NCBI GenBank assembly: GCA_026988525.1 | Contig: JALSLC010000014.1 | Location: 1 to 56,960 of the forward strand | Origin: Archaeoglobaceae archaeon | Lineage (GTDB): Archaea; Halobacteriota; Archaeoglobi; Archaeoglobales; Archaeoglobaceae | Direction of reading: 5' to 3' | DNA: 56,960 nt | In this document: piece after piece, positions 10,265-32,443 of the stretch | Numbering within the stretch: the stretch's first letter is position 1 | Layout: each line of letters begins with the position of its first letter | The notes under the pieces: generated by a model | Seen by the model: the letters and a program-made list of their open reading frames with translations, nothing else | The model's database searches: none | What the model was told of the DNA's origin: nothing | Translations under genes and position numbers: made by a program

Positions 10265-12652
10265 ATGGATATAAACATTGGTAATGGCATAATCATAGAC
10301 GAACTGAGAAACATAACTATTAAAATTGGAGATATTGTTGATGAAGAAGCCTTAAGAGATGAAGAATGGGAAGAGTTGGGTCCTACACCTAAGCCACACA
10401 TTCTCGATTTAAGATATTGGGATAGAAAACTTTTAAGTCGTTATGAACCCATATACATGCCTGTTCAGGATTTTTGTAATCTTTGTACAATGGGCCCATG
10501 TGAATTAACTGGGAATAAGGAAGGAGCTTGCGGAATTGATCTAAGAACACAAAAAGCCAGGATGGTAACCATAGCTTGTTTAATAGGAGCTTCAGCTCAT
10601 GCAACTCATGCAAGGCATTTAGTACACTATCTCATAGAGAAATTTGGTAGAGACAAACCAATTGATTTGGGGCCTGATATAGATATCGAAGCTCCCAACA
10701 TAAGACTTGTGTTGGGTATAAAGCCTAAGACTATTGGAGATTTAGAAAAAGTTTTGAATTACGTAGAGCAGGAATTGGTTAGAGTTTTACATACAATACA
10801 CACTGGGCAGGAGGAAGATTACATAGATTTTGAGTCAAAAGCATTACATGTAGGTATGCTTGATCACGTTGGAATGGAGGTTGCAGATATAGCACAGATA
10901 GTTGCGTTTAATTATCCTAAGGGTGATCCAGACGCTCCTTTAATAGATGTGGGATTTGGAGTTCTTGAATCTGAAAAACCAATTATACTTGTTATAGGTC
11001 ATAATATACTTCCAGCCAGAAATATTGATGATTACTTAAGAGAACATGGATTGGAAAACAAAGTTGAAATAGCTGGTTTGTGTTGTACAGCTATAGATAC
11101 TTCTCGTTATGATCCAAGAGCTAAGGTTGTTGGAACTTTAAGTTATGAGTTGAGAGCTATAAGATCGGGAATTCCTGACGTTGTGGTCACTGATGAACAG
11201 TGTATAAGAGCTGACACACTGAGAGAGTGTGCTAAAATGGGAATACCACTTATAGCGACTTCTGAAGCTGCTGCAAGAGGTTTAATAGATAGAACCGAGG
11301 ATGATCCAGATGAAATTGTTAGAGATCTCGTTTCTGGAAACGTGAAGGGTGTTTTAATAAGGGATCCAGACAAAGTTGGAGAAGTAGCTGTTAAAGTGGC
11401 TATGAATGTTTACAAAAATAGAAAAAGCCCCATATATATGAGTGATGAGGAACTTGAGGATCTTGTTGATAGATGTACAATGTGTATGAACTGTGTTTTT
11501 GCCTGTCCTCACAACCTGAGAATAGATAGAGCAATGGAATTAGCAAAATCTGGGGATTATAGCTATTTTGAAATAATTGAGGATACTTGTTTGGCTTGTG
11601 GAAGGTGTGAGCAGGCTTGTCCAAGAAATATTAGGATTGTAGATGTTATAATGAAAGCTGCTTACAAGCATATAAGAGAAAAAACGGGTAAAATGAGGGC
11701 TGGAAGAGGACCAATAAAAGACACTGAAATAAGAAAGGTCGGTCAGCCAATAGTTATGGGAACTATTCCGGGAGTAATAGCCCCAATAGGCTGTCCAAAC
11801 TATCCTAAGTCAAGAAAAGAAGTTTCAGAAATTATAGAGGAATTTCTAAAAAGAAAGTATATTGTCGTTACTACCGGTTGTCACGCAATGGATCTTGGAA
11901 TGTATAGAGATGAAGAGGGAAAAAGCTTATATGAAAAATATCCCGGCGTTTTTGATGCTGGTGGATTAGTTAATTGTGGTAGTTGTGTATCTAATTCTCA
12001 CATAACTGGAGCTGCAATAAAAATTGCGGCAATTTTTGCTCAAAGAAAACTCAGAGGAAATTACGCTGAAATAGCCGATTATATTTTACACAGAATAGGT
12101 GCTGTTGGTCTTGCTTGGGGGCCGTACAGTCAGAAAGCAGCGAGTATTGCTACTGGGTTTAATAGACTTGGAATACCAGCAGTTGTTGGACCTCACGGTT
12201 CAAAGTACAGGAGAGGATACGTTGGAAAGCTGTGGAAAAAAGATAAATGGTGGGTTTATGATATAAAAACTAAGAAGAAGATGGAAATTGAACCCTGCCC
12301 GGATTGTTTGTTGGTTGTAGCTGAAACTAAGGAGGAGGCAATAGTTCAATTAGCAAGATTATGTCTAAGGCCGGGAGACACTTACATGGGTAGGCAAATT
12401 AAACTAACACATTACATAGAATTAAGCGAAAAGTACCTTGGTTGCCTACCGGATGATTGGCATTTGTATGTTAGAACTGAGATGGACTTACCAACAAAAA
12501 TGAAGGATAGGCTTTTAAAAATTTTAGAAGATGAACATGGCTGGAAAATAGATTGGAGTAAAAAGAAGATTTTAGAGGGGCCTATTAGAAAGTATGATGC
12601 CGGATTTAATCCGACTATTGTAGAGCATGTTTATGATAAGTACGTAAGGTGA
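10265..12652 (+). CDS. cdhA: ACDS complex alpha subunit, carbon monoxide dehydrogenase CdhA
   Basis: CdhA interconverts CO2 and CO at a nickel-iron-sulfur C-cluster, feeding CO to acetyl-CoA synthase. The 795-residue protein shows the cysteine set for the B and D clusters (C71, C74, C79, C89: CNLCTMGPC...ACG) and two ferredoxin-type 4Fe-4S motifs (CTMCMNCVFACP near 404, CLACGRCEQACP near 441) that are specific to the archaeal form. C-cluster segments such as GLCCTA and VNCGSCVSNSH follow. Length is normal. It is the first gene of the operon and runs four bases ahead of cdhB. No catalytic residue appears lost. Confidence 0.98.
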   Translation: MDINIGNGIIIDELRNITIKIGDIVDEEALRDEEWEELGPTPKPHILDLRYWDRKLLSRYEPIYMPVQDFCNLCTMGPCELTGNKEGACGIDLRTQKARMVTIACLIGASAHATHARHLVHYLIEKFGRDKPIDLGPDIDIEAPNIRLVLGIKPKTIGDLEKVLNYVEQELVRVLHTIHTGQEEDYIDFESKALHVGMLDHVGMEVADIAQIVAFNYPKGDPDAPLIDVGFGVLESEKPIILVIGHNILPARNIDDYLREHGLENKVEIAGLCCTAIDTSRYDPRAKVVGTLSYELRAIRSGIPDVVVTDEQCIRADTLRECAKMGIPLIATSEAAARGLIDRTEDDPDEIVRDLVSGNVKGVLIRDPDKVGEVAVKVAMNVYKNRKSPIYMSDEELEDLVDRCTMCMNCVFACPHNLRIDRAMELAKSGDYSYFEIIEDTCLACGRCEQACPRNIRIVDVIMKAAYKHIREKTGKMRAGRGPIKDTEIRKVGQPIVMGTIPGVIAPIGCPNYPKSRKEVSEIIEEFLKRKYIVVTTGCHAMDLGMYRDEEGKSLYEKYPGVFDAGGLVNCGSCVSNSHITGAAIKIAAIFAQRKLRGNYAEIADYILHRIGAVGLAWGPYSQKAASIATGFNRLGIPAVVGPHGSKYRRGYVGKLWKKDKWWVYDIKTKKKMEIEPCPDCLLVVAETKEEAIVQLARLCLRPGDTYMGRQIKLTHYIELSEKYLGCLPDDWHLYVRTEMDLPTKMKDRLLKILEDEHGWKIDWSKKKILEGPIRKYDAGFNPTIVEHVYDKYVR

Positions 12653-12656
12653 TTAA

Positions 12657-13130
12657 ATGAAAGAAAAAATCTTTAATCCGGAGTTCCAGGTTGAAAAAGC
12701 GAGAAAAATAGGACCAGAAACTCTTGCAAGAATACTAAAAAAGAGAAAGAGTAAATCTGTCTTAATTACCGGGGGAAAACTTTTAGAGGATGAAATTCTT
12801 GCAGATTTAATTGCAGAACTTGTAAAGAAAAGTGGAATTAAAGTAATTGCTACGGGAGGGTCATCTAAACCTCTAATTGAAAGAGGCATTAATGTAAATA
12901 CCTGTCTTCTGTCCCATATTACGGAAAAATTGACAGATGTGAACATCCTAATTTTTGTTGGATTTGAACCCTACTTACTTTCGAGGTTACTTTCAAACAT
13001 AAAGCATTTTTTGAATGTTCTAACTGTTAGTATAGATTTTTACTATCAACCTAATGCCAAGCTAAGTTTTCCTAACTGTGATAACTACGGGTTGATTGAA
13101 ACTTTGGTATCTTGTTTGAGTGATTGTTAA
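12657..13130 (+). CDS. cdhB: ACDS complex epsilon subunit CdhB
   Basis: At 157 residues this matches the small epsilon subunit, which binds CdhA in an alpha2-epsilon2 unit and may help electron transfer to FAD-type acceptors. It has a Rossmann-like DHS fold with LITGGKLLEDEI and VIATGGSSKPLIERG. It starts four bases after cdhA with GGTGATTAAATG as ribosome site. Its end overlaps the ribosome site region of cdhC. Sequence conservation of this subunit is low in general, and position between cdhA and cdhC adds much of the certainty. Confidence 0.93.
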   Translation: MKEKIFNPEFQVEKARKIGPETLARILKKRKSKSVLITGGKLLEDEILADLIAELVKKSGIKVIATGGSSKPLIERGINVNTCLLSHITEKLTDVNILIFVGFEPYLLSRLLSNIKHFLNVLTVSIDFYYQPNAKLSFPNCDNYGLIETLVSCLSDC

Positions 13131-13141
13131 AGGTGATTAAA

Positions 13142-14638
13142 ATGGCGGAGAGAAAAAAAGTAGAAATTCCGGAAAACGTTAAAGTTAAAGTTAGTGAAGG
13201 TGAGGAGTACGATTTTCCTGTAGATATATCTCCAATGCATGAGGGTGAAAGAATAAGAAAGGGAGAGATGTACGTAGAGTTAGCCGGGCCAAAGCAACCG
13301 GGATTTGAGCTTGTTATGGCATTACCTGAGGATCAGGTAGAAGATATGAAAGTTACAATCGTAGGTAAAGATTTAGATGAACTTGAAGAGGGCAAAGCTC
13401 ATCCTTTTGCCATGATTTACTATGTTGCAGGAGAAAAGATAGACACAGATCTTGAACCAATAATAGAAAGAAGAAATCACGACTTCCAAAACTACATAGA
13501 GGGTGTTATGCATCTAAACCAGAGATACGACGTTTGGATTAGAGTAGGTAAAAAAGCTGTAGAAAAAGGTTTGAAAAGCCTTGCGACTATTGCAAAAGCA
13601 GTAATGCTTTTGTTTAAGAATGAAATGCCGTTTATTGAGAAAATAGAGGCTGTTTATGCAACTGACAGGGAATTTGTAGAAAAAACACTTAAAGAAGTAG
13701 CAATGCCAATATATGAGGAGAGAGATGCAAGAGTTGAATCCTTACATGATGAGGATGTTGAAGAATTCTATTCTTGTACGTTGTGTCAAAGTTTTGCTCC
13801 ATCTGATGTTTGCATAATAAGTCCAGATAGACCATCTTTATGTGGTGCAATAACTTGGTTTGATGGAAGAGCCGCCGCAAGAGTAGATCCAGAGGGGCCA
13901 AATAAAGCGGTTCCGAAAGGAGAGATAATTGATCCGATTGGCGGGGAGTATTCTGGAGTTAATGAATTTGCAAAAAACGAGAGTGGAGGCGTGACTGAAA
14001 GAATAAAATTACACAGTTTTCTTGAATATCCACACCCATCTTGTGGGTGTTTTGAAGTAATTGGATTCTACATGCCAGAAGTAGATGGAATAGGGTGGAT
14101 TCATAGGGGGTATCCTGAACCTGCACCAAACGGTCTTACTTTTTCAACAATGGCTGGTCAGACTGGTGGTGGAAAACAGGTAGTTGGATTTCTTGGGATA
14201 GGTATAAGCTACTTCAGGAGTAAGAAGTTCATTCAAGCTGATGGAGGATGGTATAGAGTAGTTTGGATGCCAAAAGAATTGAAGCAGAAAGTTTTGCAGT
14301 ATATACCTGAAGATATGAGAGATAAAATAGCTACGGAGGAAGATGCAAAAACTATGGAGGAACTTAAAGAATTCTTAAAAAGGGTTGATCATCCCGTAGT
14401 TAAAGGTGTTGTTAGACCAGTTGATGGTAAAAAGATAACTGAAGGGTGGTTGGAAGAGAAAGAGGAAGAAACAGAAGAAGAAGTTGAAGAAGAAAAAGTT
14501 GAACAACAACCCACTCAGCCAATGGAGTTTATGCAACTATCCCAGCTACAACCTCAGTCATTACAACCTGTAATAAAGTTAACTATAAAAAATGCTACAA
14601 TAAAAATTGATAAAATAATAGTCAAAAAGAAGGAGTGA
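13142..14638 (+). CDS. cdhC: ACDS complex beta subunit, acetyl-CoA synthase CdhC
   Basis: CdhC joins CO, a methyl group and CoA to acetyl-CoA at the nickel A-cluster. The ATG at 13142 is preferred because AGGTGA ends five bases upstream; a TTG at 13124 would add six residues. The 498-residue protein carries CTLCQSFAPSDVC and the CGA and PHPSCGCFE cysteines that build the A-cluster, then NGLTFSTMAGQTGGGKQVVGF. After about residue 430 there is an acidic Glu-rich linker, a Gln/Pro/Met-rich stretch and a basic amphipathic tail (KLTIKNATIKIDKIIVKK). The tail is echoed by the next tiny gene. Confidence 0.97.
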   Translation: MAERKKVEIPENVKVKVSEGEEYDFPVDISPMHEGERIRKGEMYVELAGPKQPGFELVMALPEDQVEDMKVTIVGKDLDELEEGKAHPFAMIYYVAGEKIDTDLEPIIERRNHDFQNYIEGVMHLNQRYDVWIRVGKKAVEKGLKSLATIAKAVMLLFKNEMPFIEKIEAVYATDREFVEKTLKEVAMPIYEERDARVESLHDEDVEEFYSCTLCQSFAPSDVCIISPDRPSLCGAITWFDGRAAARVDPEGPNKAVPKGEIIDPIGGEYSGVNEFAKNESGGVTERIKLHSFLEYPHPSCGCFEVIGFYMPEVDGIGWIHRGYPEPAPNGLTFSTMAGQTGGGKQVVGFLGIGISYFRSKKFIQADGGWYRVVWMPKELKQKVLQYIPEDMRDKIATEEDAKTMEELKEFLKRVDHPVVKGVVRPVDGKKITEGWLEEKEEETEEEVEEEKVEQQPTQPMEFMQLSQLQPQSLQPVIKLTIKNATIKIDKIIVKKKE

Positions 14639-14644
14639 TTGTTT

Positions 14645-14713
14645 ATGAAAATTGAACTTAAAGGTGCAAAAATATACGTGGAGAAAATAGTCTTTAAAAA
14701 GAAAAAGAGGTGA
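14645..14713 (+). CDS. 22-residue peptide resembling the C-terminal tail of CdhC
   Basis: A 23-codon frame starts at ATG 14645, with the strong ribosome site AGGAGTGA at 14631-14638 overlapping the cdhC stop. Its product (MKIELKGAKIYVEKIVFKK plus KKR) aligns along its full length with the CdhC tail (IKLTIKNATIKIDKIIVKK). Lys, Ala, Ile and the terminal Lys cluster sit at the same places. Its TGA overlaps the GTG at 14710 that could start cooC. A tandem duplication of the tail is the simplest origin. It may be a separate partner strand for an ACDS subunit or a translation-coupling leader. Function is inferred only. Confidence 0.6.
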   Translation: MKIELKGAKIYVEKIVFKKKKR

Positions 14714-15480
14714 TAGCTATACTAATCGCTGTTACTGGTAAAGGGGGTACTGGAAAAACTTTGGTTTCTGCTATGTTGGTTCTCCATTTATGTAAAAAAG
14801 GTAGCTTACTTGCTGTAGATGCGGATCCCGACTCAAATTTGCCTGAGGCATTTGGAGTTGAAGTTGAGAGAACTCTCGGGGATATTAGAGAAATTTTTCA
14901 AAGTAGTAGAGATGAGATAAAAGGTGATAAAGAAATTTGGTTTGAAGCAAAAATTTTTGAAGTAGTGAAGGAATTAGACAATTTCGATTTACTTGTTATG
15001 GGTAGGCCGGAGGGAGAAGGTTGCTACTGCTATACTAACAACATACTTAGGGCAATACTGAAAAAGTTCATGAGGCACTATGATTTTGTTGTAGTTGATT
15101 GTGAAGCTGGATTGGAGCATTTCAGTAGGAAGACAATTGCAGGTGTTAACTACTTAATAGTTGTGTCTGATACTTCAAGAAAGGGGCTTAGAACAGCAGA
15201 GAGAATATCAGAACTCATGGAAGAATTAAACATCAATGCAAGAAAAGGGTTAATAGGTAATAAAGTTATAGATAAAAGATCGGAAAATTTAATTAGAGAA
15301 TTCGCTGAAAATTCAGGATTCAAGTTTCTTGGTTCACTCCCCTACGATGAAAAAGTTGTTGAATGTGAAATGATGGGCAAAAGCGTTGTAGATTTGATGA
15401 AAACTAACTGCAGTTTTGTTAGGGAGTTTGAAAAGATTGTTAAAAACTTAGAATCATGGGTGGTTTTATGTCAAAGTTAA
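14710..15480 (+). CDS. cooC: CODH maturation ATPase CooC (MinD/ParA family)
   Basis: CooC is a nickel-binding P-loop ATPase that helps insert nickel into CODH. The protein shows the deviant Walker A AVTGKGGTGKT at its start, AVDADPDSNLPEAF (Asp of the switch region) and the Cys pair in GCYCYTNN typical of CooC nickel sites. The GTG at 14710 gives 256 residues and overlaps the stop of the tiny upstream gene. However, GAGGTGA (14707-14713) sits five bases before an ATA at 14719, whose product would begin like family members just ahead of IAVTGKGG. No ATG or TTG is available in this stretch. It is transcribed within the cdh operon. Confidence 0.95.
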   Translation: MIAILIAVTGKGGTGKTLVSAMLVLHLCKKGSLLAVDADPDSNLPEAFGVEVERTLGDIREIFQSSRDEIKGDKEIWFEAKIFEVVKELDNFDLLVMGRPEGEGCYCYTNNILRAILKKFMRHYDFVVVDCEAGLEHFSRKTIAGVNYLIVVSDTSRKGLRTAERISELMEELNINARKGLIGNKVIDKRSENLIREFAENSGFKFLGSLPYDEKVVECEMMGKSVVDLMKTNCSFVREFEKIVKNLESWVVLCQS

Positions 15481-16745
15481 CTTTTGAGGATATACTCAAA
15501 TTACTATCAAAGTACAACATAGAGGAATTAGAGGGTGTGGAAATAGAGGGCGATATTGAAATTGAGATAGAAGGCCTTCCAAACTTGCAGGCAATAGGTA
15601 TGGAACTTGGTATGGCTGCGTACCATCTTGCAAGAGCAGCTATGATGCTCGGATTTCCGTTTCAACAGCTTTTGCAACCTCAAAAACCAATTGAAGTAAA
15701 ACAAAAAGAAGAGGAGTTAGAGTTAATAAAAAAGAAGTTTGAACCATACAAAGTTGAATGGAGCGGGTATGTCGAGGAGGTACAACTTGGTGCTACCAAG
15801 AAAGATGGTGGGACGAGAGATTATGTAATAAAGCTTGGTGGAGAGAAAAGTTTACCTTTCTACATATTTGATTCAGAACAACCAAATTTACCAGCAATTT
15901 CCATAGATGTATTTGATAGGCCTGTTCCATTACCAAAAGTAGTTAGAATGCACTACGAGGATGTTATGGAAAACCCAGAAGATTGGGCAAAAAAAGTCGT
16001 AAAAGAGTTTAATGCTGATGCAGTTACAATACACTTGATAAGTACCGATCCGCTCTTAGATGACACTCCTGTAAATGAAGCTGTGAAAGTAGTTGAAGAC
16101 GTTCTTCAAGCTGTTAAATGCCCTATAATTGTTGGAGGTAGTGGTAATAAGGAAAAGGATCCAATTTTACTTGAAAAAGTGGCTGAAGTGGCAGAAGGTG
16201 AAAGAGTTCTACTTGCAAGTGCTACCCTTGATATGGACTGGGAAAGAATTGGAAGAGCTGCAAAAGAACACAATCATGTTGTTTTAGCCTGGACTCAAAT
16301 GGACATAAACAGCCAGAGAACTTTAAATAGATATTTATTAAAGAAAGTTGGTTTACCAAGAGATAGTCTTGTTATGGATCCAACTACAGCAGCTCTCGGT
16401 TACGGTTTGGATTATGCATTTTCAAATATGGAGAGAGCAAGGATTGCTGCTTTAAAAGGTGATGAGGATTTAGCATTTCCTGTTTCGAGTGGGACAACAA
16501 ATGCGTGGGGTGCAAGAGAAGCATGGATGAAAGAATCTCCTCTTGAAGGAGATTCTTCATGGGGTATGAGAGAGCATAGAGGCCCCCTTTGGGAGATAGT
16601 TACTGGCTTAACTTTGGCTCTTGCTGCTGTTGATATATTTATGATGATGCATCCAGTGAGCGTTGCAGTATTGAAGGAGTTAATTCAAACTCTTGGAGGA
16701 AAGAAAGAAGAGGTTGAATGTGAGGATTGGATAGCGGTGGTTTGA
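15468..16745 (+). CDS. cdhD: ACDS complex delta subunit CdhD (corrinoid protein small subunit)
   Basis: CdhD is the TIM-barrel partner of CdhE in the corrinoid iron-sulfur protein that carries the methyl group between tetrahydro(sarcina/methano)pterin and CdhC. I chose ATG 15468 because GGTGG lies just upstream; ATG 15456 would add four residues. The 425-residue protein has an acidic, strand-rich start (GVEIEGDIEIEIEG), then the barrel with PIIVGGSGNKEKDP, SATLDMDW, VMDPTTAALGYGLDY and GTTNAWGARE. It overlaps the cooC end by 13 bases and shares TGATG with cdhE, so translation is tightly coupled. Confidence 0.97.
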   Translation: MSKLTFEDILKLLSKYNIEELEGVEIEGDIEIEIEGLPNLQAIGMELGMAAYHLARAAMMLGFPFQQLLQPQKPIEVKQKEEELELIKKKFEPYKVEWSGYVEEVQLGATKKDGGTRDYVIKLGGEKSLPFYIFDSEQPNLPAISIDVFDRPVPLPKVVRMHYEDVMENPEDWAKKVVKEFNADAVTIHLISTDPLLDDTPVNEAVKVVEDVLQAVKCPIIVGGSGNKEKDPILLEKVAEVAEGERVLLASATLDMDWERIGRAAKEHNHVVLAWTQMDINSQRTLNRYLLKKVGLPRDSLVMDPTTAALGYGLDYAFSNMERARIAALKGDEDLAFPVSSGTTNAWGAREAWMKESPLEGDSSWGMREHRGPLWEIVTGLTLALAAVDIFMMMHPVSVAVLKELIQTLGGKKEEVECEDWIAVV

Positions 16746-18151
16746 TGAAGGTAAAAAGCCCCCTTGAAATATACAAGTTACTCCCCCAAACAAATTGCGG
16801 GGAGTGTGGTTTTGATACTTGCATGAGTTTTGCTGCACACATCTTAGATAGATCGGCAAAAATTGAGGATTGCAAACCTCTTGTGGAACAAGCGAAAAAA
16901 AGCAAAAAGGTAGCAGAAAAACTCAAAAAATTGAAAGAAATGACTGCCCCAGAAATAGATGAAGTGATAATTGGAAAAGACCTAAAAATAGGGGGTGAAG
17001 AAGTTTTACATAGACACGAACTAACTTTTTTCAACCCTACAGCACTTTTTTTTGATGTAAGCGATATAATGGACGAAAAAACAATAGATGAAAGGTGTAG
17101 CAGAGTAGTAGAATACAAGAAATTTTATGTCGGTAGATATCTAACCTTAGATGGAATAGCAGTTAGGAGTGTGTCAAACAATCCAGATAAGTTTGCAGAA
17201 GTTGTGAAAAAAGTTAGCGGTTATGGGAAACCCATAGTGCTAATAAGTTTGAATCCTGATTGTATTAAAAAAGCACTCGATTTTGTTACAAATCCTCTAA
17301 TATACGCAGCTAACGAAGAAAACTGGAAAGAAATGCTGAAAATTGCGAAGAAAAACAAGGTTCCAGTTGTTGTTAGGAGTAAGGACTTAGATATGCTGAA
17401 AAGCTTAGCAGCTACTTTTAAAAAGTATGAAGTTCCCGTAGTTTTAGACCCAGTAACTGAGCCAGCAGGGAGAGGGTTACAAAAAACTTTTGAAAGAGTA
17501 ATACAAATAAGAAGAACTGCAATACTTGGACAAGATAAAGACATAAATTGCCCGATAATGGTAACTCCCATATCTGCTTGGGCAATGAAAGCAGATGAAA
17601 TAGCTAAGATATACTGGGAAACTGTAATTGCATCTTTATTCATAGTTAAGTACGCAGATATAATGATACTCCATAGTTTAGAGCCTCACACAATTATGCC
17701 GATAGTAACTTTGAGAGCTAACATATACACAGATCCAAGAACACCTGTACAAGTTGAGCCAGGATTGAGGGCTATAAACAATCCAGACAGAAACTCGCCT
17801 GTACTGATAACAACTAATTTTGCTCTTACTTATTACACGGTTGAAAGTGACTTGCAGAGCAGTGGGGCTAGTGGTTGGTTGTTGGTTCTTGATACTGGAG
17901 GTCTTGGAGTTGAAGTTAGTGTAGCAGGAGGGCAATTTACACCTGAAAAAGTGAAACAACTTATGGAGGAAACTAAGGTAGCTGAAAAAGTTGATCACAG
18001 ATATTTAGTAATACCCGGATTAGCTGCAAGACTTCAAGGAGCTTTGGAAGATGAAATTGGCTGGAAAGTCTTAGTAGGTCCTACAGATTCTGGCAGACTT
18101 AAGGCTTGGCTGGAAGAAAACTGGCCACCGAAAAAGGAAATTAAAAATTAA
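16745..18151 (+). CDS. cdhE: ACDS complex gamma subunit CdhE (corrinoid iron-sulfur protein large subunit)
   Basis: CdhE binds the corrinoid and a 4Fe-4S cluster and receives the methyl group. The ATG at 16745 shares its A with the cdhD stop and follows GGTGG; a TTG at 16727 is possible. The 468-residue product has the N-terminal cluster motif TNCGECGFDTCMSFAAH with a further Cys (EDCKP) some 17 residues on. A TIM barrel (PVVLDPVTEPAGRG, ITTNFALTYYTVESD) and a C-terminal corrinoid-binding domain (YLVIPGLAARLQGALED, VGPTDSGRL) follow. It closes the cdh operon and overlaps the convergent cobA end by 11 bases. Confidence 0.97.
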   Translation: MKVKSPLEIYKLLPQTNCGECGFDTCMSFAAHILDRSAKIEDCKPLVEQAKKSKKVAEKLKKLKEMTAPEIDEVIIGKDLKIGGEEVLHRHELTFFNPTALFFDVSDIMDEKTIDERCSRVVEYKKFYVGRYLTLDGIAVRSVSNNPDKFAEVVKKVSGYGKPIVLISLNPDCIKKALDFVTNPLIYAANEENWKEMLKIAKKNKVPVVVRSKDLDMLKSLAATFKKYEVPVVLDPVTEPAGRGLQKTFERVIQIRRTAILGQDKDINCPIMVTPISAWAMKADEIAKIYWETVIASLFIVKYADIMILHSLEPHTIMPIVTLRANIYTDPRTPVQVEPGLRAINNPDRNSPVLITTNFALTYYTVESDLQSSGASGWLLVLDTGGLGVEVSVAGGQFTPEKVKQLMEETKVAEKVDHRYLVIPGLAARLQGALEDEIGWKVLVGPTDSGRLKAWLEENWPPKKEIKN

Positions 18152-18881
18152 ACATTTTATAAAATTCTGATACTTCTTTACCTATGGTTACAACATCTCC
18201 AATTACAACCACTGCTGGAGCGGTTATACACTCTCTTTCTACATCTTCTACAACTCTATTTAACTTTGAAAAAATAACTTTCTGCTTATTGCAACAGCCC
18301 CACTGAATGACTGCTGTGGGTGTATCTGGATTCTTTCCATTTTCAATTAACTTTTTTGTTATTTCTCTTAGATTACTCATACCCATCAAAATAACGATGG
18401 TGGCATTTAGATTTGCAAGAGCTTTCCAGTTTAATCTTTCTCTTGCTTCTCTACCTGTTATAAATACTACAGCCGGATCAAACTTTCTATGTGTTAGGGG
18501 TATCCCTGCACAAGCCGGAGCCGCAGTAGCAGAAGAAATTCCCGGAATAACTGAAAATTTAACTCCGTTTTTTGCAAGGTATTCGATTTCTTCTCCCCCT
18601 CTACCAAATATAAATGGATCCCCTGCTTTAAGTCTTAGAACTTTTTTACCTTCCTTAGCAAGTTTAACGAGCAATTCGTTAATCTCTTCTTGTTTCAGTC
18701 TATGTCTTCCAGCTCTTTTTCCAGCATTTATTTTTTCAGCTTTCGAGTTCTCTATTAGTTCGATTACTTTTTCTCCTAACAATTCATCGTGAACTATAAC
18801 ATCAACTTCGTTTATCAGTTTTTTCGCAACTTCAGTAATTAAATTTCCACATCCTGCTCCAGCTATGTAAACTATACCCAT
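18141..18881 (-). CDS. cobA: Uroporphyrinogen-III C-methyltransferase (SUMT)
   Basis: SUMT adds two methyl groups to uroporphyrinogen III to make precorrin-2, the branch point to cobalamin, siroheme and F430-like tetrapyrroles. The 246-residue protein has IAGAGCGNLIT at the start, GKRAGRHRLKQEEIN, LKAGDPFIFGRGGEE and IPGISSATAAPACAGIPLTH, which are specific to SUMT rather than later Cbi methyltransferases. It follows hemC by 17 bases in the hemL-hemC-cobA order. It has no fused hemD, and no uroporphyrinogen-III synthase gene is present here. Confidence 0.96.
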   Translation of the reverse strand: MGIVYIAGAGCGNLITEVAKKLINEVDVIVHDELLGEKVIELIENSKAEKINAGKRAGRHRLKQEEINELLVKLAKEGKKVLRLKAGDPFIFGRGGEEIEYLAKNGVKFSVIPGISSATAAPACAGIPLTHRKFDPAVVFITGREARERLNWKALANLNATIVILMGMSNLREITKKLIENGKNPDTPTAVIQWGCCNKQKVIFSKLNRVVEDVERECITAPAVVVIGDVVTIGKEVSEFYKMFNF

Positions 18882-18898
18882 ACTCGATCCCTTTTATT

Positions 18899-19786
18899 TT
18901 ACCTACAGCTCATTATTTTAGAACACCCCTCTCTATAGTTTTTTGCTATTTCTCTTGCTTCTCTTGAAGCATCATCAAAATCATCTGATTTTATTAAAGC
19001 TTCAAATCTAAGGTCTTTATTTTCTGAATCGCTTTTTGTAGAGTAAATGTGAGCTATTAACTTTACACTGTTTCCTACTTTTTTAGCATATATCCCGGCT
19101 GGTACAGCACAACCAATCTCAAGAGTTTCAAGAACAGCTCTCTCAACACAAGCCTCTAAAAAAGTGTCTTTGTCATTTAACTCTTCGACTAACCATTCTT
19201 CTCCTTTTCTCGTTTCTATAGCTATTATACCTTGGTTTGCAGATGGCACAAATTTCTCAGGATTAAGGGTTTTTCTTTTCACATCTATTCCAAGCCTTAT
19301 TAGTCCTGCTTCGGCTAAAACTATTGCATCGTACATACCTTCTTCAAGCTTTTTTAATCTTGTATCTATGTTTCCTCTTAGATTTTTTATTTCAACACCG
19401 GGCATGTACCTCTTTATTTGTGCTATTCTCCTTAGACTTGATGTGCCTACAACTTTAATGTCACTTTTATTGAAAACTATGCAGTCACATGGACTCTCTC
19501 TTTTTAAAACAGCAGGAATCACTCCTAAAATTTTGGAGGGTACATCCTTGTAACTGTGAACTGCCAAGTCAATTTTTCCCTCTGAAAGAGCTCTATCAAT
19601 TGTTTGGACAAAAGCACCAACTCCTTTGAACTCGTGTAATGGCTTATCTTTTAGTACATCTCCACTTGTCTTTATTATTTTAATTTCTACATCATATCCC
19701 TTTTTTTTTAGTAGCTGGACTACTTTCTCCGTCTGAGCGAGAGCAAGCTTACTACCTCTCGTACCAACTATAATTTTCTCAGACAT
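18899..19786 (-). CDS. hemC: Hydroxymethylbilane synthase (porphobilinogen deaminase)
   Basis: HemC links four porphobilinogens into hydroxymethylbilane. The 295-residue protein shows [25 protein letters not shown] (catalytic Asp region), [26 protein letters not shown] and [12 protein letters not shown], whose Cys holds the dipyrromethane cofactor. All expected residues are present. It overlaps the end of hemL by 19 bases and precedes cobA, so the three are one transcription unit. Confidence 0.97.
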
Positions 19787-21027
19787 GCTTTCATGACCTC
19801 TACAGTTTTTTCTATATCCTCTTCACTGTGGGCAACACTGAGGAAGCAAGTTTCGTATTGGGATGGTGGTAGAAACACACCTTCCTTTAAAAGTAGGCTG
19901 AAGAAGTCTAAGAACTTCTTAGAATCAAGTTTAAGAGCATCTGAATAATTTTTTGGTTCTTTTCCAAAGTATATCCCAAACATTGAGGCTATGCAACTGG
20001 TAGAATATCCAAGTTTTTCAAGTTCTGGAATTATATTTTCTACGATCTCTTTTGTTCTTTTTTCGAGAATCTTGTACGGTTTGTTTTCAACTAAGTATTT
20101 TACAGTTGTAAATCCGGCTGATAATGTTAGGGGATTACCACTAAATGTACCAGCTTGATAAACAGGACCGAGAGGTGAAATCATTTCCATAATTTCTCTT
20201 TTTCCACCGTATATACCTATTGGTAAACCTCCTCCTGCTATTTTTCCAAGAGTCGTTAAATCCGGTTTTACGCCATAGTACTGTTGGGCACCCCCTTCAC
20301 TAAGTCTAAATCCGGTTATTACTTCATCAAATATAAGCAAAACATCGTTTTCTTTTGTTATTTTTCTAACTTCTCTTAGATAATTTTCTTCTGGAAGTAT
20401 CAAAGAACTGTTACCCATAACTGGCTCAAGTATCATTGCAGCGATTTCTTCTCTTTTTTTCTCTAATAACGATGAAAGACTTTCTACATCATTGTATGGC
20501 ACTTGATATGTATATTTCACGTACTCTTCTGGCACTCCTGCTGAATTTGGTACTCCATGGGTTGTAGCACCGCTACCTGCTTTAACCAAAACAGAATCGT
20601 GTGCACCGTGAAAGCTACCTTCAACTTTGACTATCCCTTTTTTCCCTGTATATCCTCTTGCTAACCTTATTGCAGCCATAGTGGCTTCGCTTCCAGTGTT
20701 TACGAATCTCAACATTTCTATGCTTGGATAAAGTTTTGTTATTAGTTCTGCAAAAATTACTTCTAATTCTATTGGTGTTCCATAGAGCCAACCCTTCTCT
20801 ATCTGTTCTAATATGGCTTCTTTAACTTTTGGATGTGCATGTCCCAAAATTAGTGGTCCATACGCCAAGCAGTAATCAATGTATTCTCTACCATCTACAT
20901 CAACTATTTTACTTCCAAATGCCTTCTCAGTGTAAAAAGGATACGGCTTAATGGCCCTTACGGGTGAGCTAACGCCAGCTGGCATTAAATTTATAGCCTT
21001 TTTATACAATTCCTCAGACTTTGTCAT
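19768..21027 (-). CDS. hemL: Glutamate-1-semialdehyde 2,1-aminomutase
   Basis: HemL turns glutamate-1-semialdehyde into 5-aminolevulinate with PLP. The 419-residue class III aminotransferase shows [57 protein letters not shown] and [14 protein letters not shown], where the Lys forms the Schiff base. It begins 18 bases after the rpo3 stop on the same strand, so it probably belongs to the transcript of the ribosomal protein genes. hemA and hemB are not in the window. Confidence 0.97.
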
Positions 21028-27519: not shown

Positions 27520-28080
27520 TTGGATATCGCAATTAAAAATATCAAAAAATTAATTATCTCTCACAAAACTTTGTTTGTGAAGTTTACTAAGGATGAAGTA
27601 ATCGGTGTTGCTTTTTCAAAGCTGAAACCTGAAAAGAGAGACGTATTTGCAGATATAGGATGTTATTCGTGCAAAGTTTCTGCTTTTTTCAGTCCTTACG
27701 TAAAAAAAGTGTACGCTGTTGATTTAAGTTTGGAAAACATAAAACCTGAATACGTAAAAGACAACGTCGAACTGTTAGAAATGAATGGAGTAGAATTTCT
27801 AAAAAATTATAGAGCTGATATAATTTTTTTCGGTGGGACTAAGGATATTGAAAAAATGCTAAGACTTGCATTTGATAGAGGTACAAAAAAGTGCTGTGTC
27901 AGTGCTGCGAGGATTGAAGTGGCTATTAAAGCAAAGAAAACAATGGAAGAATTGGGTGTTTTTAAAGAAATAGTAGCTGTTTGCGTGTGGAAGAGTTATA
28001 AACTTGCAGGTTATACAGCATTTAAACCCATAAATCCAGTTTTTTTAGTTGTGGGGGTGAGCTCTTGCTCTATGGAGTAA
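27520..28080 (+). CDS. cbiT: Cobalt-precorrin-6B/7 decarboxylating methyltransferase CbiT, diverged SAM motif
   Basis: CbiT methylates C15 and decarboxylates C12 of the corrin ring. The 186-residue Rossmann protein has the family's start, with FVKFTKDEVIGVAFSKL in place of the usual TKxEVR segment, and DIGCYSC at residues 45-51. Most members read DIGCGTG or DIGCGSG, so two of the three glycines of the SAM loop are replaced here (Tyr49, Cys51). TTG at 27520 is the only start available, because TAG closes the frame at 27493, and no good ribosome site is visible. The order before cbiL strongly supports the call. Activity is less certain than identity. Confidence 0.82.
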   Translation: MDIAIKNIKKLIISHKTLFVKFTKDEVIGVAFSKLKPEKRDVFADIGCYSCKVSAFFSPYVKKVYAVDLSLENIKPEYVKDNVELLEMNGVEFLKNYRADIIFFGGTKDIEKMLRLAFDRGTKKCCVSAARIEVAIKAKKTMEELGVFKEIVAVCVWKSYKLAGYTAFKPINPVFLVVGVSSCSME

Positions 28081-28679
28081 GTATTGGTCCGGGAGATCCA
28101 GAATTATTAACTCTCAAAGCGAAAAAAGTGATAGAGGAAGTTGATGAGGTAATAGCCCCGGGGAAGTTGGCAGCCAAGGTTGTAGAAGGAATTAGAGATG
28201 TAAGAATAGTTGAATTTCCTATGGGGGAAAGCGAAAAAGTAATAGAGGTTCTTTCAAATGAATTGGCAACGAGGTGTGCTAAAGAGGACATAGCATTTGT
28301 GGCTTTGGGAGATGTTATGTTTTATTCGACTTTTATGCACATAGCTAAAAAAATAGCTGGAAAAGTTAAAATAGAGTGCATACCCGGAGTACCAAGTTTT
28401 AGCTGCGTTTTTGACGCCACTCTAACTTTCTGTAATAAACCTTTTGAAGTTATTACTCCAAGGGAAATTGAAAGTTGTAGTAGAGATATAGTAGTAGTTA
28501 TAAAAGCGACAAAACCAAAAGAAATAGAGAAAAAAGCGGAAAAAATGGGTTACAAAGTTAAGGCTGTTGCAAGAAGGATGTTCATGAATGGAGAAGAAAT
28601 ATACTTGGAAAAAATACCCTACTTTGAGGACTACTTTACGACAATTATTTTAGAAAAAGTGGGAAATTATGAAGGCTAA
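28065..28679 (+). CDS. cbiL: Cobalt-precorrin-2 C20-methyltransferase CbiL
   Basis: CbiL methylates C20 of cobalt-factor/precorrin-2. The 204-residue tetrapyrrole methylase shows VSIGPGDPELLTLKAKKVI, VALGDVMFYSTFMHIA (GDP.xYST is CbiL-like) and CIPGVPSFSCVFDA. The TTG start at 28065 is backed by GGGGGTGA four bases upstream and overlaps the cbiT end by 16 bases. At 204 residues it is slightly shorter than usual (about 220-240). It overlaps cbiF by 11 bases. Confidence 0.93.
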   Translation: MLYGVSIGPGDPELLTLKAKKVIEEVDEVIAPGKLAAKVVEGIRDVRIVEFPMGESEKVIEVLSNELATRCAKEDIAFVALGDVMFYSTFMHIAKKIAGKVKIECIPGVPSFSCVFDATLTFCNKPFEVITPREIESCSRDIVVVIKATKPKEIEKKAEKMGYKVKAVARRMFMNGEEIYLEKIPYFEDYFTTIILEKVGNYEG

Positions 28680-29382
28680 GGTTTACTTCATCGGATTTGG
28701 TCCGGGAGATCCAGAATTATTGACTTTAAAAGCGCATAAGCTTTTAAGTAAAGCAGATTTGATAATTTATGCTGGCTCTATAGTGCCTAAGGAATGTTTA
28801 TCGACTTACAAAGGCTTGAAAGTAAACAGTCACGGAATGAAGTTAGAAGAAATAGTTTCTTTAATGGAAAGAGAGGCTAAAGCTGGAAAAACTGTTGTTA
28901 GAGTCCATAGCGGTGATCCTTCGATATACTCAGCTATAAACGAACAGATAGAAGAACTCGAAAAAAGAGGCATTGAGTGTGAAGTGATACCAGGAATAAG
29001 CAGTGTTTTAGCTTCAGCAGCATCTTTAAAATTAGAGCTAACTTCTCCCGGAATTTCAGAATTCGTTTTTATAGGTAGGCCTGCTGGTAAAACTCTAAAA
29101 GAAGATTACTTGGAAGAGGTAGCTAAAATACCCTGTACAATAGTACTCTTACTTGGAATTGATAAAATAGATTACATAGTAGAAAAAGTTTCAAAAGTAA
29201 GAGGTAGTAAAGAACCAGTTGCAGTAGTTTACCACGCTTCAAGAGATGATGAGATAATCATAAAAGGTAAACTTGAAGATATAGCTGAAAAAGTTAAAAA
29301 AGCAGGGATAAATAGAACTGCTACAATTATAATTGGAAAAGCTTTAGAAAATAGAGGAAGGAGGTCTGTCCTATACGGATAG
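28669..29382 (+). CDS. cbiF: Cobalt-precorrin-4 C11-methyltransferase CbiF
   Basis: CbiF methylates C11. The 237-residue protein has FIGFGPGDPELLTLKAHKLL, ADLIIYAGSIVPKE (a CbiF hallmark), VRVHSGDPSIYSAINEQ and VIPGISSVLASAASLKLELT. Length is slightly below the usual 250. It starts inside the cbiL end and its TAG at 29380-29382 overlaps the proposed start of cbiG. Confidence 0.96.
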   Translation: MKAKVYFIGFGPGDPELLTLKAHKLLSKADLIIYAGSIVPKECLSTYKGLKVNSHGMKLEEIVSLMEREAKAGKTVVRVHSGDPSIYSAINEQIEELEKRGIECEVIPGISSVLASAASLKLELTSPGISEFVFIGRPAGKTLKEDYLEEVAKIPCTIVLLLGIDKIDYIVEKVSKVRGSKEPVAVVYHASRDDEIIIKGKLEDIAEKVKKAGINRTATIIIGKALENRGRRSVLYG

Positions 29383-30074
29383 CAGTATTGGGTTTTGGAA
29401 AAGACATAAGGCAGCTTAGAAAACTTTCTGACTGGCTTAATGCTGAAATAATCCTTTATAAATCTGGAATATGGAAAGATCTGTTTGAAAAGGAGTACGA
29501 TTGTATAGTTGCTTATATGCCGTGTGGGGTTGTTGTTAGGGGGATATGTCCCCACCTAAGGAATAAGTGGATTGACCCAGCAGTAGTAGTTGTAGATAAA
29601 GCTATGAGGTTCGCAATTCCAATAATTGGAGGACACCACGGTGGAAATGAAATCGCTCAAATGCTTGAAAAATATGGGCTAAAGGCAGTAATAACTACTG
29701 CAATGGAATACTCAGAAGGATTAAGCGTTGGTATAGGGTGTAAAAGAGGAGTTAGTGCTGAAGAAGTTTTGTATGCAATAAAATCTGCTCTTGCCGAAGT
29801 TGGATTTGAAATTAAAGATATTAGAGTAATAGCCACATCTGAAATAAAAAAGGGTGAGAAAGGAATTGTAGAAGCAGCAGATAAGTTGAAAAAACCATTG
29901 ATGTTCTTAGACAATAAAACTCTAAACTGCATAAATGTTCCAAGTGAAAGCGAGGCTAAAAGAATTGGACTTAGAAGTGTGGCTGAAGGATGCGCCCTTT
30001 ACTACTCTAAGGAAAAAGTCCTTTTATTGCCTAAGAGAGTTTATGGAAGAGTTACAGTAGCAATAGCAAGGTGA
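29373..30074 (+). CDS. cbiG: Cobalt-precorrin-5A hydrolase CbiG, apparent ATA start
   Basis: CbiG opens the delta-lactone of cobalt-precorrin-5A and releases acetaldehyde. The protein (233 residues from 29373) shows AYMPCGVVVRGICPHL, WIDPAVVVVDKAMRFAIPIIGGHHGG and VSVGIGCKRG-like LSVGIGCKRGVSAEE with a C-terminal LPKRVYGRVTVAIAR. GGAGGT at 29360-29365 is seven bases before ATA 29373, which gives a start MRIAVLGFGKD containing the first beta strand. The only conventional start, TTG at 29388, has no ribosome site and removes that strand. TAG at 29352 closes the frame upstream. The short middle region is usual in archaea. Confidence 0.9.
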   Translation: MRIAVLGFGKDIRQLRKLSDWLNAEIILYKSGIWKDLFEKEYDCIVAYMPCGVVVRGICPHLRNKWIDPAVVVVDKAMRFAIPIIGGHHGGNEIAQMLEKYGLKAVITTAMEYSEGLSVGIGCKRGVSAEEVLYAIKSALAEVGFEIKDIRVIATSEIKKGEKGIVEAADKLKKPLMFLDNKTLNCINVPSESEAKRIGLRSVAEGCALYYSKEKVLLLPKRVYGRVTVAIAR

Positions 30075-30078
30075 TTTT

Positions 30079-31425
30079 ATGCTGTACGTTGTAGGAATTG
30101 GTCCGGGAAAAGAAGATTTACTCACTCTCAGAGCTGTAAGAATTTTAAAGGAAGCTGACGTTGTTCTTGGTCATAGAAGTTATTTAAGTAGAGTTCTTGA
30201 TATTATCAATCCAAATGCAGAAATAATAGAGAGTAGAATGGGTAAAGAACTTGAAAGAGTAAAAATAGCTGTAAAACTTTCTAAGAATAAGAAAGTTTGC
30301 CTTGTTAGCGGAGGAGATCCATCTATATATGGTATGACTTCTCTTTTGTTGGAGTATTTAATGAAAAATAAAATAAATTTAAAGTTTGAGGTAATTCCTG
30401 GAGTTACAGCCTTATCTTCAGCTAATCCTCTCTTAGGGTGTCCTGTTAGTGGAGATCATTGTGTAGTTAGCTTGAGCGATCTTCTGACTCCTTGGGAATG
30501 TATTGAAAGAAGTCTTATTTCAGCACTTCTTGGAGATTTTGTTGTTGTTATATACAATCCATCGAGTAAACGGAGAAAGAAAAACTTAGAAAAAGCGATG
30601 AAGATAATATTGAGGTTTAGAGGAAACGTACCAATAGGTTGTGTCAAAAATGCTGAGAGAGAAGGCACAGAAATCTGGATTTCAAATCCGATAGAAATAA
30701 TGGAGAATTTAGATAGAGTGGATATGCATACAATACTGTTTGTCTCAAATTATGAAACTGTTTTTGATAGTAATATTTTGCTAACACCAAGAGGTTATTC
30801 GAATAAGTACAGTATAAGTGAGAATGAAAAAAGAGTTATAGAATCTTCTGGAGCGAAAACAAAAGAGGCTATTACTATTGCAAAAAGTAGTGCTAAAGTT
30901 GCTGAAGTTTTACTGCAAAACTTCGATGGAGTTGAAAAATTTATTATGGAAAGATGCTTAGTTGCTACAGCAGATCCGTCAATTTTGTCAATTCTCAAAT
31001 TTAATAGAATTGAAGAAGTAATAAACGCCATAAAAAATTGTAAAAAAATTATAGTTGATGTTGAAATGGTTAAAGCTGGAATTTATGGAAGAGCTAAAGA
31101 TAAAGAAATCTTAGTTGCTTCAAAACTTGGAAAAAACGAAGAAAAAACCTTAGTTTCCTCAGGAATAGATAAACTAAAAAATGATATTAAATCTCAATTT
31201 GTAGCTATAGGTAATGCCCCGTCAGCTCTTGAGGAATTATGCAAATTAATTGAAAATGGTACAACTCCTTCAGCTATTGTTGCTACTCCTGTAGGTTTTA
31301 CGAACGCTGTAAAGGCAAAGGATATGTTGTCGGAGTTAGATTTGCCATACATTGTATCAAAAGGCCCGAGAGGAGGGTCTAACCTTTGCGTTGCTATCGT
31401 AAATGCTTTGCTATCTTTGGGGTGA
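30079..31425 (+). CDS. cbiH: CbiH-CbiC fusion: precorrin-3B C17-methyltransferase with methylmutase-like domain
   Basis: Residues 1 to about 240 are CbiH, which contracts the ring and methylates C17: VGIGPGKEDLLTLRA, VSGGDPSIYGM, IPGVTALSSANPLLGCP and YNPSSKRRKKN. Residues about 245-448 match precorrin-8 methylmutase (CbiC/CobH): IIVDVEMVKAGIYGR, VAIGNAPSALEELCKLI, ATPVGFTNAVKAKD and GPRGGSNLCVAIVNALL. In CobH the catalytic His sits in RMVHACG; here the same place reads RCLVATA, so Val295 stands where His is expected. The fused domain may be inactive or use another residue. The start ATG 30079 follows GTGATTTT. Confidence 0.9.
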   Translation: MLYVVGIGPGKEDLLTLRAVRILKEADVVLGHRSYLSRVLDIINPNAEIIESRMGKELERVKIAVKLSKNKKVCLVSGGDPSIYGMTSLLLEYLMKNKINLKFEVIPGVTALSSANPLLGCPVSGDHCVVSLSDLLTPWECIERSLISALLGDFVVVIYNPSSKRRKKNLEKAMKIILRFRGNVPIGCVKNAEREGTEIWISNPIEIMENLDRVDMHTILFVSNYETVFDSNILLTPRGYSNKYSISENEKRVIESSGAKTKEAITIAKSSAKVAEVLLQNFDGVEKFIMERCLVATADPSILSILKFNRIEEVINAIKNCKKIIVDVEMVKAGIYGRAKDKEILVASKLGKNEEKTLVSSGIDKLKNDIKSQFVAIGNAPSALEELCKLIENGTTPSAIVATPVGFTNAVKAKDMLSELDLPYIVSKGPRGGSNLCVAIVNALLSLG

Positions 31426-31429
31426 AAAA

Positions 31430-31978
31430 ATGCTCTCAGTTGTTGGAGTAGGAATAGCTGAGGGACATATTACTGAGAGAGGGAGAAAGATAATAGAAGA
31501 AGCTGATGTGGTTTATGGTAGCAAAAAAGCAATAAAAATTGCTAAAGTAAATGGGAAAATAATTGAAAAGTTTTGTAGAGAAACTTATTCTAAAATCGAA
31601 GATGAGGCAAAAAGCAAAAATGTTGTTGTACTTTCTACTGGAGATCCAATGGTGTCTGGATTGGGTTTAAAGTTGAAAGCTGATATAATAGAGAATGGAA
31701 TAAGCAGTGTTTTAGTTGCGTTGAGTAGGTTAAGGTTAAACTTATGTGAGGTTATAGTAGTTGACTGCCACAATAAAGATTGTTTGAGTGAGATAAAAAA
31801 GGCTTTAGAACTTAGGCCGGTATTAGTTCTTACATCTAAGGGATTTAAGCTTGAAATTGACGGTGTTAAAATTACTGTTTTGGAGAACTTGTTTAGTAAT
31901 AACGAAAAAATATACAATGTTAGCGGAAAGTTCGTTGTTGAGTGTAACGATACTATACTTTTAGTGCAAAAAAATTAA
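31430..31978 (+). CDS. cbiE: Cobalt-precorrin-7 C5-methyltransferase CbiE
   Basis: CbiE methylates C5 in the late corrin pathway and works with CbiT, which is here a separate protein. The ATG at 31430 follows GGGGTGA by five bases; an earlier TTG at 31403 lies inside cbiHC and is unlikely. The 182-residue product shows VVGVGIAEGHITERGRKII, ADVVYGSKKA, STGDPMVSGLGLKL and ENGISSVLVALSRLRL, which replaces the usual PGISS segment. It is compact compared with the family (about 200). Confidence 0.87.
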   Translation: MLSVVGVGIAEGHITERGRKIIEEADVVYGSKKAIKIAKVNGKIIEKFCRETYSKIEDEAKSKNVVVLSTGDPMVSGLGLKLKADIIENGISSVLVALSRLRLNLCEVIVVDCHNKDCLSEIKKALELRPVLVLTSKGFKLEIDGVKITVLENLFSNNEKIYNVSGKFVVECNDTILLVQKN

Positions 31979-32032
31979 TAATCTAAGGTATTTTTTACTT
32001 TAAAACAAAAAAATTTGATAGAGGTAAGCTAT

Positions 32033-32443
32033 ATGGATAGGGTCAAGAAAGGTTTGATTATAATGGGACACGGGAGTAAACTGCACTACTACAAAGAAGT
32101 AATGGAATTTCATAGAGAAAGGATAATGAAATCTGGATTCTTTGATGAAGTTGAATTGGCATTTGCTGCACATGGAAGAAAACCAACTGTGGATGAAGTT
32201 ATAAAAAAAATGGAAAGCAAAGAAATTTACTTGGTTCCGCTGTTTATGGCTTACGGCGTTCATACTGCTGAAGAACTACCAGAAATGCTTGGATTCGAGT
32301 TTAGGGAAGGGACTGTTGAATTAAGTTTGGACGGGAAAAAAGTAATTCTATGTGAGCCGGTTGGCAGGGATGAACTGATAACTTACGCCATACTAAACAG
32401 AGTTATGGTTGCAAAGAAAGATTTGGAATCGCAAACAAAATAA
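32033..32443 (+). CDS. cbiX: Sirohydrochlorin cobaltochelatase, short form CbiX/CfbA
   Basis: The 136-residue chelatase inserts cobalt (or nickel, if it acts as CfbA) into sirohydrochlorin. It has the metal-binding His in IIMGHGSKLHYY and the second His in AYGVHTAEELP, and lacks the duplicated half of long CbiX. ATG 32033 is placed by GAGGTAAG upstream; a TTG at 32015 would include that site. It is last in the cob cluster and 54 bases after cbiE. Cobalt is the likelier metal given its neighbours, but sequence alone does not separate CbiX from CfbA. Confidence 0.92.
   Translation: MDRVKKGLIIMGHGSKLHYYKEVMEFHRERIMKSGFFDEVELAFAAHGRKPTVDEVIKKMESKEIYLVPLFMAYGVHTAEELPEMLGFEFREGTVELSLDGKKVILCEPVGRDELITYAILNRVMVAKKDLESQTK

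Follow-up and report, generated by a model that had tools for sequence, protein, structure and literature searches.

The gene for a fusion of the cobalamin enzymes CbiH and CbiC raises the question whether a CbiC domain without the histidine of this enzyme family can still act as cobalt-precorrin-8 methylmutase. This histidine is regarded as the residue that donates the proton in a [1,5]-sigmatropic methyl shift, a reaction type with few proposed examples in biology. The gene lies in the window, the whole stretch of 56,960 nt that was analysed (contig JALSLC010000014.1 of an Archaeoglobaceae archaeon). The source genome has 1.43 Mb in 39 contigs and is rated 99.8% complete.

The fusion gene and its changed residues

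The fusion is part of a cobalamin operon on the + strand with the gene order cbiT-L-F-G-HC-E-X. The following features were assigned:

27520-28080, + strand: cbiT, diverged (NF001556 66 bits, cut-off of 238 not reached; SAM motif DIGCYSC)
28065-28679, + strand: cbiL (NF004060 133 bits, below the cut-off of 189)
28669-29382, + strand: cbiF (TIGR01465 235.9 bits, below the cut-off of 259.65)
29388-30074, + strand: cbiG (matches to CbiG_C and CbiG_N)
30079-31425, + strand: cbiH-cbiC fusion gene, 448 aa (open reading frame and domain matches to both halves)
30079-30798, + strand: CbiH domain, residues 1-240, cobalt-factor III C17-methyltransferase (TIGR01466)
30850-31422, + strand: CbiC domain, residues 258-448, cobalt-precorrin-8 methylmutase fold (PF02570, AlphaFold model, Z score to CobH 1f2v)
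30961-30963, + strand: Val295, codon GTT, at the position of the CbiC/CobH histidine (phmmer, MAFFT, alignment to 1f2v)
31150-31152, + strand: Leu358, at the position of the TR-motif arginine (alignment; Arg or Lys in 146 of the 150 rows having a letter there)
31222-31224, + strand: Ser382 of GNAPS, Thr in every His-bearing CbiC examined (alignment)
31403-31978, + strand: cbiE (NF004461 134 bits, below the cut-off of 187)
32015-32443, + strand: cbiX/cfbA-type chelatase (PF01903; NF033198 88 bits, below the cut-off of 120)

A first-pass annotation of this DNA had called the gene a CbiH-CbiC fusion, and both halves indeed match their models: TIGR01466 gave 257.9 bits (cut-off of 246.35 passed) and PF02570 gave 148.8 bits for residues 269-446 (cut-off 22.5). 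TP_methylase and CbiC were the only domains found by Pfam in the fusion protein, which showed no MerR-type DNA-binding domain in this search.

In CobH, His43 is regarded as the proton donor. The annotation had also placed a valine at the site of this catalytic residue, within positions 30850-31000, and this was confirmed by two methods. A gapless phmmer alignment against the PDB set ERCLVATAD against RRMIHATAD of T. thermophilus CbiC (1v9c) and KAIHAAGD of the T. volcanium protein (1ou0), and the MAFFT alignment likewise put Val295 into the His column. Since residues 258-448 contain no histidine at all, no realignment could supply another one at the active site. In the alignment to 1f2v the histidine is chain residue 52 and the TR-motif arginine chain residue 125; minus a nine-residue tag these are presumably His43 and Arg116 of the CobH numbering.

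The view that the downstream motifs are intact held for GNAP, PVGF and GG, but the Thr of GNAPT is replaced by Ser382 and the TR arginine by Leu358, so that two conserved residues, not one, are changed. The loss of the arginine had been overlooked before, and judging from the alignments it appears nearly special to the genus of the window. Ser271, Asp327, Thr357 and Lys414 are kept together with the three motifs. Hence the His of RMxHA, the Arg of TR and the Thr of GNAPT, which mark a His-dependent methylmutase of the CobH type, are all absent, and the features of the CbiC/CobH sequence family (PF02570 over the cut-off, a CobH fold over the full domain, the GNAP, PVGF and GG motifs, Asp327 and Lys414) are all present.

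An AlphaFold model of the CbiC half, built on 61 sequences, reached a pLDDT of 96.1; a single-sequence model of the whole fusion (pLDDT 36) was not used. The CbiC model superimposed on CobH 1f2v with a Z score of 25.4 and an rmsd of 2.4, with 188 of 190 residues aligned. All 12 top structural matches were CbiC/CobH proteins or the CoaR domain, and the entries ranking after CoaR, with Z of about 8 or lower, were set aside as common alpha/beta similarities. As judged from this model, the CbiC half truly has the CbiC/CobH fold.

It had been suggested that another gene supplies the cobalt-precorrin-8 methylmutase. This finds no support, as neither PF02570 nor a 61-sequence CbiC profile at E<=10 detected another cbiC in this 99.8%-complete genome. 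The CbiC domain is under purifying selection: by the NG86 method, used because YN00 gave no estimate for most pairs, dN/dS of the CbiC half was 0.08-0.21 over six within-genus pairs with mostly saturated dS, and 0.15 on 62 codons for the close pair L035-L040. For CbiH the single computable pair gave 0.045. The ratio of CbiC to CbiH divergence was 1.2-1.6 in pairs with the window, and 0.37-1.33 among fusions outside the genus.

Distribution and history of the His-less form

PF02570 matched 40 of 60 genomes of the same phylum, the source genome included, with exactly one match each (39 over the cut-off). In the MAFFT alignment 39 of these 40 CbiC sequences are His-less, with Ile (27), Met (4), Ala (3), Val (2), Thr (2) or Phe (1) at the site, and only L025 has His. 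The congener L039 reads the same ERCLVATAD, and the congeners L035 and L040 have Thr, which makes a sequencing error unlikely. The first-pass annotation had considered that His in relatives would indicate such an error; what the aligned congeners have is Val or Thr, and the same phylum is His-less almost throughout.

A further 80 named loci were retrieved with an eight-sequence alignment of His-less proteins, a query that favours proteins of its own kind; 54 of them lack and 26 have the histidine. Where the title names a group, the His-less loci are all from Halobacteriota-type archaea and belong to Methanosarcinales, Methanomicrobiales, Methanoperedens, Methanothrix, Geoglobus and related lineages, and the form with Phe at the site occurs in Methanophagales and Methanolliviera loci. 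Isolates with a His-less CbiC include Methanococcoides, Methanohalophilus, Methanosarcina, Methanomicrobium and Methanocalculus. The His-bearing named loci come from bacteria, Hydrothermarchaeum and four Bathyarchaeia or other Thermoproteota-type archaea. These four (L085, L096, L097, L110) are the whole sample of Thermoproteota-type archaea, and class I methanogens are not represented. L110 combines His with Ile at the TR arginine, the sole such case outside the genus of the window in a 151-row alignment.

From the class of the L025 genome, 59 genomes gave 31 matches, and the 29 new loci read all have His. Together with L025 this makes His in 30/30 haloarchaeal CbiC (L025, L164-L192), the class name haloarchaea being inferred. 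One locus titled Halobacteria archaeon (L091) has the same sequence as the His-less L013.

Taken together, the sequence comparisons indicate that the His-less CbiC is an old trait common to an archaeal clade, and neither a broken gene nor a peculiarity of the window gene. In the literature searched we found no mention of archaeal CbiC proteins that lack the His. The His-independent clade would thus be a variant within the known CbiC/CobH family for which we found no earlier description there.

The histidine is coupled to a second residue. We counted 151 rows (40 same-phylum loci, 80 named loci, 29 haloarchaeal loci and 2 PDB chains, with the window duplicate taken out; the exact repeats L041 and L091 were among them and were dropped before tree building). 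All 58 rows with His have Thr in GNAP[T/S]. Ser stands there in 91 of the 93 rows without His, the other two being Ala (L029) and a sequence cut off before the site (L040). Gly362 is found in 91/92 His-less rows, with mixed residues there in His rows, and position 424 is Ser in the His-less clade and mostly Tyr, Phe or His in the His rows.

In a 105-row tree, calculated after removal of both trait columns, the His label needs two changes, and the starred branches force two. Haloarchaea, with His and GNAPT, fall within a starred set of 42 rows that otherwise have no His. A careful tree of 59 rows rejected a single clade of all His-less rows (AU p = 0.00012, the group having been defined once the first tree was known), and a one-change history was found in 0% of 200 bootstrap trees. 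These trees suggest one of two histories: a single loss of His followed by its return in haloarchaea, or about three losses, with haloarchaea retaining it. Under either history the coupling of His with Thr and of its absence with Ser held at each change. The nested haloarchaeal His with GNAPT may be a case in which a catalytic residue was regained along with its partner.

A histidine elsewhere in the domain was considered as a replacement. The best His column among the His-less rows (53/90) was the histidine of a GH pair in column 125 of the 151-row alignment, as in L002 and others. Neither the window nor any of the 16 His-less fusions has it, and 30/30 His-bearing haloarchaea do, so it does not compensate.

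Fusions of CbiH and CbiC occur in several genera of the family of the window (frames of 444-475 aa; L026 was checked with models) and also in the Phe group (L015, L046, L059), where both halves match the CbiH and CbiC models. Other partners are found as well: two Deltaproteobacteria (L104, L114) and an archaeon titled Nitrososphaerota (L097) have CbiX-CbiC fusions in which His is kept. Another genus of the family has a CbiC-CbiE fusion of 407 aa (L029:1402-2622), the sole CbiC row with Ala at 382. Fusion as the cause of the His loss was rejected, since 26 of the 27 stand-alone same-phylum CbiC are also His-less and the CbiX-CbiC fusions retain His. Ile occupies the His site in 2/16 fused versus 59/74 stand-alone His-less rows, and relatedness explains part of this difference. 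The CbiH fusion therefore appears to be an event separate from the His loss, in several archaeal groups.

Function of the CbiC half and alternative explanations

The absence of His does not support the view of a dead or replaced enzyme. We consider it most likely, with a probability of roughly two in three, that the CbiC half is a working cobalt-precorrin-8 methylmutase, forming cobyrinic acid, of a His-independent archaeal clade, and it is the only candidate in the genome. The different mechanism proposed in the first-pass annotation fits best with the data, although not as a trait of this fusion, as it would apply to the whole archaeal clade. According to the literature, CobH moves a methyl group from C11 to C12 (PMC7242693), pericyclic reactions need no catalytic group, and the CobH shift is thought to be aided by protonation of a ring nitrogen (PMC5501846, which cites the CobH structure paper for this). 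In the His-less clade the His was replaced long ago by Ile, Val, Met, Phe, Ala or Thr, coupled with the change of Thr to Ser in GNAP[T/S]. As a [1,5]-sigmatropic step the C11-to-C12 shift would require no covalent catalysis; the cavity would hold the cobalt corrin in its reactive shape, and the cobalt on the ring nitrogens in the cobalt-early route may do the job proposed for His protonation in cobalt-free CobH. The His-less cavity would be repacked to match, with Ile, Val or Phe next to Ser, and the enzyme from the genus of the window would manage without the usual arginine as well.

In the cobalt-early route all intermediates contain cobalt, and haloarchaea use this route, as stated in PMC8305020. 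Cobalt-early chemistry was rejected as the whole explanation: these haloarchaea have His (30/30), as do the sampled bacteria, so that cobalt alone does not account for the loss. For Methanosarcinales of arthropod guts a complete cobalamin pathway without a B12 transporter is described (PMC11362671). Considering that the sampled Methanosarcinales are His-less, the enzyme most likely works there. A measured activity of any His-less CbiC was not found in the literature searched. For the gene in the window, activity is less certain than for its clade as a whole, since in its genus the Arg is lost, CbiD was not found and the SAM motif of CbiT is changed, and its CbiC half evolves faster than CbiH.

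The genus has an apparent need for corrinoids. A CODH/ACS cluster with CdhC and two CdhD-type subunits lies at 10265-18151 of the window, about 9 kb from the cobalamin operon:

15456-18151, + strand: two CdhD-type corrinoid protein subunits of CODH/ACS (PF03599 twice; TIGR00381)

CdhD was found in 6/6 genomes of the genus. A CbiA/CobB-type protein, which could be CfbB instead, is likewise present in all six, and CobS in the three that are near-complete. On the - strand, at 18141-21027, a tetrapyrrole methylase, a porphobilinogen deaminase and a class III aminotransferase stand in a row and are probably early tetrapyrrole genes.

An alternative, which we regard as unlikely, is that the genus runs an altered late corrin pathway, in which CbiC binds or converts a non-standard intermediate (e.g., one without the C1 methyl group), or in which the late steps are vanishing and corrinoids are salvaged. 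CbiD was not found in any of the six genus genomes (the source genome and five congeners) by Pfam or by a profile made from ten CbiDs of the same family and order, the profile being run without a positive control, while it is present in 34 of the 60 genomes surveyed. The failure to find CbiD may point to a gap, to a gene that has diverged or to another route; a diverged CbiD could escape detection, as in the three g10 genomes it scores only 23-40 bits per piece. 1-Desmethyl corrins reportedly form without CbiD, going by the title of one study. The SAM motif of CbiT is changed in 4/4 genus members (DIGCYSC in the window and in L149, DIGCHSC in L139, DVGCHSC in L153), compared to mostly DIGCGSG or DIGCGTG outside the genus, so that the loss of a glycine is specific to the genus. 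The TR Arg is lost in all three members that cover the site (Leu358 in the window, Val in two congeners), and CbiC evolves faster than CbiH. A genome of another genus (G012), also without a CbiD match, has the odd CbiC L029, which alone has Ala at 382, together with Val at 357. The CbiH and CbiC halves are, however, both under purifying selection, and haloarchaea lack the CbiD and CbiJ steps in reconstructions and are nevertheless treated as cobalamin makers (PMC8305020). The absence of CbiJ was not used as evidence, since the controls Methanosarcina acetivorans and Sulfolobus also had no match to the model.

An unusual late corrin pathway in the genus is thus possible. More doubtful is the specific version in which the late ring steps were rewired together (no CbiD, a changed CbiT, a CbiC without His and Arg), giving a corrinoid with a non-standard ring, e.g., without the C1 methyl, for CODH/ACS by a methyl shift that uses neither residue. 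In the genus CbiC the His loss is probably old and clade-wide, and the Arg loss new.

It is improbable that the CbiC half now serves only for binding or as a scaffold, without catalysis, in the manner of the CobH-like domain with which the cobalt sensor CoaR binds tetrapyrroles. CoaR demonstrates that the fold can serve binding (Z 23.0; PMC7689651), and His and Arg are both gone. Yet the genome has no other CbiC, the partner is CbiH inside a cbi operon with no DNA-binding domain, and the same His loss is seen in single-copy CbiC across methanogens. The earlier suggestion that this half is now structural is disfavoured by these stand-alone methanogen proteins and by the purifying selection. A sequencing error or recent pseudogene is very improbable despite the fragmented assembly, as the frame is open over 448 aa, congeners share Val or another non-His residue and dN/dS is well under 1.

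Returning to the preferred reading of a working enzyme, corrinoid-dependent archaea of a large clade apparently manage without the CbiC His, and the haloarchaea nested among them have both His and the threonine that accompanies it. The role of the His can thus be tested directly by comparing natural enzymes and by single swaps. The genus of the window adds a natural CbiC without both His and Arg, and the Arg loss, along with the missing CbiD and the altered CbiT, is the part that deserves a second look.

Comparison with known CbiC/CobH proteins

The window CbiC shares with CobH (1f2v and 1i1h, which we take to be precorrin-8X methylmutase of Pseudomonas denitrificans; 3e7d of Brucella; 4au1, 5n0g) the fold, Ser271, Asp327, Thr357, GNAP, PVGF, Lys414 and GG. 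It differs in lacking the equivalents of His43 and Arg116 (Val295 and Leu358), in having Ser for the Thr of GNAPT, in its cobalt-early context and in being fused to CbiH. The CbiC proteins of the anaerobic route (1v9c of T. thermophilus, 2afr of Leptospira, 1ou0 of T. volcanium) have the same fold (Z 24.2-25.2), family and presumed cobalt-precorrin-8 step, but unlike the window CbiC all three bear the His. Stand-alone CbiC of Methanosarcinales and Methanomicrobiales (L055, L092, L042, L095 and others) are His-less with GNAPS, as in the window, whereas they are unfused and keep the TR arginine or a lysine. In the CbiX-CbiC fusions of the PRK05782 type (L097, L104, L114) CbiC is also joined to another cobalamin enzyme, but there the partner is CbiX and His is kept, while the window has CbiH and no His. 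The tetrapyrrole-binding domain of CoaR (8x33, 9ika, 9ikt, 9ipl) has a CobH-like fold with Z 20.7-23.0 to the window CbiC; CoaR is a MerR-family regulator according to PMC7689651, in contrast to the window CbiC with its partner CbiH.
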